Shown piece by piece: positions 30,277 through 32,032 of a stretch of DNA of 64,000 nucleotides. Each line of letters begins with the position of its first letter. Within the stretch, counting starts at the first letter, position 1. Position numbers and translations under genes: made by a program. The stretch spans positions 62,001-126,000 of the forward strand of contig WGMQ01000004.1 in NCBI GenBank assembly GCA_016125005.1, in the 5' to 3' direction. Under the pieces are notes generated by a model, which did not search any database, was not told where the DNA came from, and worked only from the letters and a program-made list of their open reading frames with translations. The stretch is from a bacterium. Lineage in GTDB: Bacteria > Sumerlaeota > Sumerlaeia > SLMS01.

Positions 30277-30350
30277 GTACCTTTGCTCCCCTGATGGCAC
30301 CTCGGCTTGACCCGGGGTGGTGGGCTGACGTTTGCTCCCTCGCGTATCGG

Positions 30351-30550
30351 TTCGGCCGGTGGGACGCCAGTCCTGGCTGGTCGAGGCAAGAGGGAATCCG
30401 GTGTGAATCCGGAGCTGCCCCGCAGCGGTAAGCAGAAACGAACGCCACAAGTTGCGCACTGGGGTCAGGCCCTGGGAAGCGGTGGTTAGTAGAAACCGAT
30501 GGGATCAGGCATCCTATCGTAGCGTCTGCAAGTCCGAAGACCTGCCGGTA
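30351..30550 (+). ncRNA. Cobalamin (B12) riboswitch
   Basis: The conserved blocks occur in order: GGCCGGT near 30354 (P1 5' side), AGGGAA at 30391-30396, TCCGGTGTGAATCCGG at 30397-30412, GCTGCCCCGCAGCGGTAA at 30414-30431, CTGGGAAG at 30472-30479, and the B12 box AAGTCCGAAGACCTGCC at 30530-30546 with the P1 3' side. Layout and spacing match the btuB-type class I adenosylcobalamin switch. It lies on the plus strand, about 170 nt before the start of the secreted propeller gene at 30722; the intervening segment must hold the expression platform, and CCCTCGAGGG at about 30587-30596 is a small palindrome there. Confidence 0.95.
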
Positions 30551-30721
30551 TCGGTCGACCCCTTTGGGGCGGCCGCGAGTGACCGATCCCTCGAGGGAAG
30601 GGAAAGTCGGACGATGCACTTGCCGGGGCGCGCCATGGGCGTCCCGATGACCGGTGCCTCCACCGCTTTTCGTCGCATCGACGCGTTCGGCCTCTCACCA
30701 ATCCTCCCAATGAGGGAACCG

Positions 30722-32032
30722 ATGAGAACGGCCTTTTCGCACCTGTCCTGTCTGGCAGCAACCGCCCTGGTGGCGGGTGTCGCTGCCCAGCCAACCATCT
30801 TTCGCGCTCCGGAGCAGATCACCGACAGCGCCACCACCTACCAACTTTCCCGCAACCCGAACGGCTGCCTTGTCATGGCGCCCGGTCGACAACTCCACCT
30901 GGTCTATTGGTCCGGTGGCGAGACAACCACCGTATCCTCGCCGAGCTACGTCTACTACCGCGGCTGGAATCCGCTGACCGGATGGAGCGCGCAGGTGAGC
31001 CTTGCCGATTCGTTCGTGGGCGGCACCACCTACGTTGGCGGTCGGCAGCCGATGGCGGCCCTGACCACGGATGGCACGCTGTGGGTCACCTGGCACGACC
31101 ACCGCAACGGCACCTCGGGTTCGCCCGGGAACAACAACGACAATATAGAAATCTATACAGATCGCCTTCCCGTCGGCGGTGCCTGGTCCACGTCCGACTT
31201 CCGCGTGACGACGTCGGGGGCGGGGACGCTTGGCGACAACGGCTTCCTGCCGCGAATCGCGGCGCAGGCCGATGGCTCGCTGGTGGTGGCGTGGTACGAC
31301 TTCCACTACAACGTGGGGGTCTCAGAGATCATGGCGCGGCGCTCCGACAACACGGGCTTCTTCGAGCCGTCGACCGCGATGAACACGATGCGCTTAACCG
31401 ATGCGTCGACGCGGGGCGGGACGTTGAGCTATACAGTGCCCGACCTGGCCGTGGACACGGCCGACACCGCCCATGTGGTCTGGAGCACCGGCACCGGCGG
31501 CGCAGCCCCGCTCTACTACGCACCGCTCGCCGAGCCGATCGGCCTGGTGACGGAGACGCAGATCGCGAGCAGCACCGGTGGCTACTTCAACCCGGCCCGC
31601 CTGACGGCGGCCCCGAACGGGGACCTGTGGGTTGTCTATACGAACGACCCGAACGGTGCCAGCGACATCGTGGCGCGCCGCAAGCCCGCGGGCTCCGGCA
31701 CCTTCGATGCAGCGATCACCCTGGCGGGCGGCTCACCGCTGACCTCGGCGGCGGACCTGGAAGTCGGAGGCGATGGGAAGCTGCACCTGGTCTGGGTCGA
31801 CGAGCGCGATGGGCGACACGTCTATTATGGACGTTTTTCCGGCGCGGGCTCGCTGGAGTTCGAGGTGAAGCTGACGGAGGACGCGGGCAACTGGCAGCGT
31901 CCCACGCTGGCGCTCGACTCCGAGGACCAGCCCTTCGTGGCGATGGAACTGGATGGCGTCTCGACGAACGACCTGTGGTTCACGTTCCCGGAGGAAGCAC
32001 TGGGGGCAGAACACTGGGAGCTGTGGAAGTAA
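30722..32032 (+). CDS. Secreted BNR/sialidase-like beta-propeller under B12 riboswitch control
   Basis: 436 residues from ATG 30722 (GAGGG upstream; ATG 30710 is possible). Signal peptide MRTAFSHLSCLAATALVAG, cut near VAA-QP. The mature part is built of six or seven repeats of the form LxVxWxDxRxGxxxxYYxR (LWVTWHDHRNGT, LVVAWYDFHYNVG, AHVVWSTGTGGAAPLYYA, LWVVYTNDPNGASDIVARR, LHLVWVDERDGRHVYYGR), the pattern of BNR/exo-sialidase-like propellers, though no sialidase catalytic set is evident. The cobalamin riboswitch upstream implies a role in B12 capture or in a B12-related process. By analogy, Bacteroides BtuG is a surface beta-propeller that binds B12. Binding is inference. Confidence 0.75.
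   Translation: MRTAFSHLSCLAATALVAGVAAQPTIFRAPEQITDSATTYQLSRNPNGCLVMAPGRQLHLVYWSGGETTTVSSPSYVYYRGWNPLTGWSAQVSLADSFVGGTTYVGGRQPMAALTTDGTLWVTWHDHRNGTSGSPGNNNDNIEIYTDRLPVGGAWSTSDFRVTTSGAGTLGDNGFLPRIAAQADGSLVVAWYDFHYNVGVSEIMARRSDNTGFFEPSTAMNTMRLTDASTRGGTLSYTVPDLAVDTADTAHVVWSTGTGGAAPLYYAPLAEPIGLVTETQIASSTGGYFNPARLTAAPNGDLWVVYTNDPNGASDIVARRKPAGSGTFDAAITLAGGSPLTSAADLEVGGDGKLHLVWVDERDGRHVYYGRFSGAGSLEFEVKLTEDAGNWQRPTLALDSEDQPFVAMELDGVSTNDLWFTFPEEALGAEHWELWK

Follow-up and report, generated by a model that had tools for sequence, protein, structure and literature searches.

Why should a cobalamin riboswitch stand in front of a gene for a secreted beta-propeller? The question was raised by a 64,000-nucleotide stretch of DNA from a Sumerlaeota bacterium (the window), for which an earlier note, made from the sequence alone, suggested either an unrelated or distant B12-capture propeller comparable to BtuG of Bacteroides or a corrinoid-linked glycan protein. 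It bears on how a vitamin of 1.3 kDa crosses the outer membrane of diderm bacteria that lack BtuB. The locus probably belongs to a vitamin B12 capture route that has not been described, and it seems reasonably likely that the propeller is exported and captures corrinoids within a pilin-linked uptake system of B12-scavenging Sumerlaeota, as an analogue of BtuG with no relationship to it.

Riboswitch, leader and propeller in the window

The features of the locus, in window coordinates, are the following.

30331-30563, + strand: cobalamin riboswitch aptamer (RF00174; cmscan 102 bits, E 2.2e-24, full length over model positions 1-189)
30564-30721, + strand: presumed expression platform and 5' leader, with a weak terminator-like hairpin at 30652-30665
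30722-32032, + strand: seven-bladed beta-propeller protein P0001, predicted to be exported, 436 aa (gene call, AlphaFold, Foldseek, 18 full-length homologues)
30722-30787, + strand: predicted signal peptide, about residues 1-22, without a lipobox (MRTAFSHLSCLAATALVAGVAAQ at the N terminus)
32003-32029, + strand: disordered C-terminal tail with the motif HWELWK (W-x-x-aromatic-x at the C terminus; pLDDT < 50 at residues 428-436)

The aptamer score far exceeds the RF00174 gathering cut-off of 31.5 bits, and the B12 box AGTCCGAAGACCTGCC lies at about 30531-30546. These data bear out the clear cobalamin riboswitch of the earlier note, whose start at 30351 lies inside the aptamer. RF00174 gives the sole gathering-level Rfam match in the whole 64 kb window, and no second copy turned up in the genome assembly (88.5% complete).

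The 30652-30665 hairpin is the only + strand terminator-like site between the riboswitch and the propeller gene. Three such sites were found in the region, compared with 1.1 ± 1.0 in shuffled sequences, which is the chance level; the earlier note had named an end of transcription before 30722 as a refutation of its proposal. The hairpin could equally be the riboswitch's own expression platform. Folding of the leader revealed no structure beyond chance (z −0.85), and no sigma-70-type promoter was seen at the locus. The riboswitch ends 159 nt before the propeller start codon. The flanking genes are both on the opposite strand, which leaves riboswitch and propeller as a unit with a single gene in the window.

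The P0001 gene runs from an ATG at 30722 to a stop codon at 32030-32032, and this start was preferred over an in-frame ATG at 30614 because it yields a signal peptide, in agreement with the earlier note. The N termini of its homologues are hydrophobic as well, with no conserved cysteine in the 19 N termini. Against Pfam, P0001 gave only a sub-threshold match to BNR_2 (15.7 bits against a curated cut-off of 31.4; E 0.0099), and no relative was found in the PDB by sequence. An AlphaFold model built from alignment A1, which comprises P0001 and its 18 full-length homologues, is a seven-bladed propeller (pLDDT 88.9, pTM 0.89). Among the best 50 Foldseek matches of the model, the closest are seven-bladed lectins, lyases and sialidases (top E 2.6e-11, identity 10-16%), namely PLL lectins, lyases acting on rhamnose-glucuronate or ulvan, and sialidases. 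Model and matches together argue for seven blades, not six, which narrows the "six or seven BNR-like blades" proposed earlier and leaves the BNR assignment below threshold. The mature protein is acidic (pI 4.6). No binding site could be named from the model.

These structural matches suggest another explanation, namely that P0001 is a secreted carbohydrate-active propeller (a lectin, lyase or sialidase-like protein) that binds or releases glycans, with B12 serving as a proxy signal or with corrinoid sources that are glycan-bound. The Foldseek ranking and the sub-threshold BNR_2 match are consistent with this explanation. Propeller folds are promiscuous, however, and the resemblance of P0001 to the PLL, PL25 and GH33 seven-bladed lectins, lyases and sialidases concerns the overall fold (Foldseek E 1e-11 to 1e-8); at 10-16% identity there is no common family, and the genomic context differs. 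Moreover, the second position of a conserved W-x-D-x-R stretch in the propellers varies (H, Q or N), unlike a catalytic histidine.

Riboswitch-linked genes in other Sumerlaeota

Full-length homologues of the propeller occur in 18 relatives, 17 of the same class and one of the same phylum. The named relatives are all MAGs, and genes at their loci were called by a simple script. With P0001 included, 19 of 19 propellers have a cobalamin riboswitch upstream on their own strand, at a distance of 122-2553 bp. The propeller is the first gene after the riboswitch in six cases (the window's genome, G004, G010, G011, G025 and G039); the other 13 leave space for one intervening gene, and a gene is usually called there. 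The chance of such linkage is at most 0.0018 per gene, an upper bound, and because the pair, for which the earlier note had proposed a search in relatives, is kept in 19/19 genomes from many genera, chance pairing is excluded. It has to be considered, nevertheless, that the pairing in the window is decayed, the riboswitch having formerly controlled btuFCD or some other gene before the propeller drifted in behind it. The propeller of the window does stand alone, with the other operon members elsewhere or not found. Given the breadth of the linkage and the first-gene position in five further genomes, only a version in which this one locus is a remnant survives, and we regard it as highly improbable. 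The consistent tie to B12 riboswitches also weighs against a glycan-directed propeller, as does the occurrence of btuF, and in some cases btuD and btuC, in the same gene run in several relatives; we consider that explanation unlikely.

The earlier note had also stated that its proposal would fail if the riboswitch in relatives preceded a different gene and the propeller was absent. This arrangement was found in about half of the genomes. The slots concerned are mostly filled by the pilin or by different exported proteins that share the C-terminal motif, which points to an interchangeable module rather than a chance pairing. Across the 40 Sumerlaeota genomes examined, 55 cobalamin riboswitches were found in 37; two are cut by contig ends, leaving 53 readable. 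As many as 51 of these head a motif-tagged exported protein (42), a pilin without a tagged protein (8, including L172, a weak match with E 1e-15) or btuFDC alone (1). The propeller is missing from about half of the Sumerlaeota, which carry different tagged proteins in its place. Exported proteins thus seem to be the main targets of the cobalamin riboswitch in this phylum.

The remaining two riboswitches head metE (G030; L170:3856-6129, − strand) and nrdD (G019; L083:4313-6511, − strand), the latter accompanied by an NrdG-like radical-SAM gene. Both metE and nrdD are classic B12-repressed, B12-independent isozymes, so the switch apparently behaves in the ordinary way in Sumerlaeota. The same two cases lend some weight to the proposal that the propeller is itself a B12-independent substitute, or else a structural or secretion part, for instance an adhesin associated with pili or an envelope protein, whose repression by B12 has nothing to do with uptake. 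Co-regulation of the pilin, and the presence of the C-terminal motif on exported proteins without a riboswitch, are also compatible with this proposal. On the other hand, no enzyme family was recognised in the propeller, and the unrelated exported families that fill the slot beside btuFDC fit receptors better than isozymes. We judge a substitute or structural role to be quite unlikely.

Evidence for a link to B12 transport comes from the gene order in relatives. Where more of the genes are present, they most often run in the order riboswitch, exported protein(s), propeller, prepilin-like protein, btuF, btuD and btuC. This order is complete, with a tagged protein in the exported position, at L064 (G002) and L052 (G009). 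L067 (G006) has it too, with the contig ending inside btuC; L053 (G008) follows it as far as btuF, and at L073 (G001) and L075 (G005) the propeller's place is taken by a different tagged protein. The modules can also be separate, as in G017, where one riboswitch serves btuFCD and a second heads propeller and pilin. Pfam searches on sampled operon members supported Peripla_BP_2, ABC_tran, FecCD and N_methyl. A possible btuB was considered for the gene that separates the riboswitch from the propeller, and this was ruled out. Of the two neighbours that the earlier note had named, btuF lies in the same gene run in several relatives and btuB in none.

The pilin belongs to a family present in 31/40 Sumerlaeota genomes and riboswitch-linked in 25 of those 31. 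Its alignment, A2, shows about 61-68% identity to the first member, with one dedicated copy per genome (for example, L067:2015-2695, − strand, and G000:C73:1831-2502), and matches to the A2 profile are from Sumerlaeota (BRC1) or from MAGs without a taxon name, apart from one weak N-terminal match, which places the window's genome as a Candidatus Sumerlaeota MAG. The pilin shares the N-terminal prepilin motif (N_methyl, PF07963) with type IV pilins and type II pseudopilins, and differs from them in its usual linkage to a B12 riboswitch and in its conserved C-terminal part (GNGPAAGGSWDG, PRFHNFRYAYN), which matched no named pilin family above the curated cut-off. AlphaFold modelled it poorly past the N-terminal helix (pLDDT 57.6).

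In the window's genome (G000), the propeller is alone behind the riboswitch, and the pilin is encoded elsewhere without one. A FecCD gene on contig C86 was considered as BtuC and rejected, as it adjoins the heme genes HutW and HutX. Since this is the sole full-length FecCD permease that was found, a cognate BtuFCD was not identified in the 88.5% complete assembly. Separately, an Acido-Lenti-1 RNA (RF01687) was observed at L112:600-646 (− strand), near a partial propeller and the pilin of G012.

The C-terminal motif

In each of the 19 propellers, a linker of variable sequence leads to an aromatic motif at the very end of the protein, and W432 is conserved in 18 of them. The motif is common to several unrelated exported families (loci L052-L091 and L164-L179; also G000 and G015). 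Over 58 riboswitch-linked exported proteins, the propeller included, the consensus is about [SA][AS]VxDWxLYE, with exactly four residues after the tryptophan in 48. One of the other families, A3, is an NHL-like propeller (for example, at L086, L168 and L091) that is often the sole recognised gene behind its own cobalamin riboswitch. Another, A4, comprises exported proteins of 257-300 aa behind cobalamin riboswitches (for example, at L177, L169 and L075) and is related, below threshold, to the Leptospira LIC_13355 lipoprotein family. Further carriers are a PQQ-type propeller family, a three-member family and three singletons.

The motif is absent from the sampled ends of BtuF, BtuC and BtuD. 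Its use as a B12-specific mark was rejected, since about 4-5% of the remaining secreted-like proteins of G000 and G015 carry it as well; the regular expression used is loose, and enrichment over internal positions in these two genomes is modest. NCBIfam gave no match of the sorting-signal type on P0001. We read the motif as a possible sorting or anchoring signal, perhaps one not yet described.

Proposed corrinoid capture and passage through the envelope

The window's genome encodes B12-dependent methionine synthase (MetH) and methylmalonyl-CoA mutase. CbiC, a marker of corrin synthesis, was absent from all 40 Sumerlaeota genomes, in which control genes were detected, making de novo corrin synthesis unlikely. 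A TonB plug domain was found in 4/40 genomes and was missing in 36/40; TonB barrels were found in 4/40, one of them below the cut-off. The window's genome has neither plug domain nor barrel, and no riboswitch contig in Sumerlaeota carries a TonB receptor. Secretins are present in all 40 genomes, and within the operon no part of an outer-envelope machine is recognisable except the co-regulated pilin. Here, then, is a phylum that uses B12 and that, with no CbiC and few TonB receptors, has retained B12 riboswitches ahead of propellers, the pilin and BtuFCD. The idea of an unrelated or distant B12-capture propeller is well supported at the level of the pathway, through the riboswitch linkage, the btuF/btuD/btuC runs, the missing CbiC and the scarcity of TonB receptors.

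Comparison with known systems helps to place the propeller. We take BtuG to be the Bacteroidetes surface B12-binding lipoprotein family PF16819, with BtuG2 as PDB 3DSM. P0001 resembles BtuG in being an acidic, seven-bladed propeller with predicted export under a cobalamin riboswitch, with homologues beside btuF, btuC and btuD in relatives. Unlike BtuG, it lacks a lipobox and has the C-terminal W-x-x-Y motif in place of a lipid anchor, and its partner, in relatives, is a pilin rather than BtuB. No PF16819/BtuG match to P0001 was found by sequence, either with Pfam or with the family profile against the PDB, and BtuG is absent among the best 50 Foldseek matches. P0001 is not a BtuG, differing from it in sequence family, lipid anchor and BtuB partner. 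BtuG has been reported only from Bacteroidetes (PMC6143338). It forms a lid on BtuB, and in BtuG2 a negatively charged face binds the corrinoid, which carries positive charge (PMC10404256). By analogy, P0001 probably works like BtuG. The comparison drawn in the earlier note thus holds as an analogy and fails for sequence relation, lipoprotein signal and a neighbouring btuB.

Two other systems offer partial parallels. BtuH and BtuJ are B12-binding, exported accessory proteins with a DUF4465 jelly-roll, co-regulated with B12 transport (PMC13398666, PMC12751083). The propeller is likewise an exported protein co-regulated with B12 transport genes, but it has a different fold, and neither it nor the riboswitch-linked first-slot proteins scanned against Pfam matched DUF4465. 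The E. coli-type btuB/btuFCD system shares the riboswitch family and the BtuF, BtuC and BtuD families with Sumerlaeota. It differs in what the riboswitch heads, which in Sumerlaeota is exported propellers and a prepilin, the TonB plug being mostly missing. A literature search for Sumerlaeota with cobalamin or pilin, or for a cobalamin riboswitch with a pilin, returned no paper on this subject.

If the propeller is a capture protein, low intracellular cobalamin would cause the riboswitch to permit expression of its gene, and the product would be exported by the Sec pathway. The C-terminal W-x-x-[YW]-x tail may then send it beyond the periplasm or hold it at the cell surface, where it would capture corrinoids, or their carrier or conjugate, to be handed on to BtuF and BtuCD. 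In place of BtuB, the prepilin-like protein that is co-regulated in most relatives may form an outer-membrane route together with a secretin. A more specific version is B12 import that is BtuB-free and pilin-based, in which the corrinoid is caught at the surface by propellers and further tagged proteins, and the B12-regulated pilin carries it, or its carrier, via the secretin to BtuF and BtuCD. We put this version forward tentatively, as less likely than not.

The riboswitch-linked exported proteins provide a concrete candidate set of B12-capture proteins unrelated to BtuG, which would be a case of convergence. The linkage also hints at what some of the numerous functionally unassigned prepilins in such phyla may do.

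As a separate observation on prepilins, the window's genome encodes about 40 prepilin-motif proteins at 40 places. At G000:C86:8650-15289 (L144), ABC uptake genes are followed by a prepilin-like gene and the HutW/HutX heme-degradation genes, forming a heme locus with a pilin.
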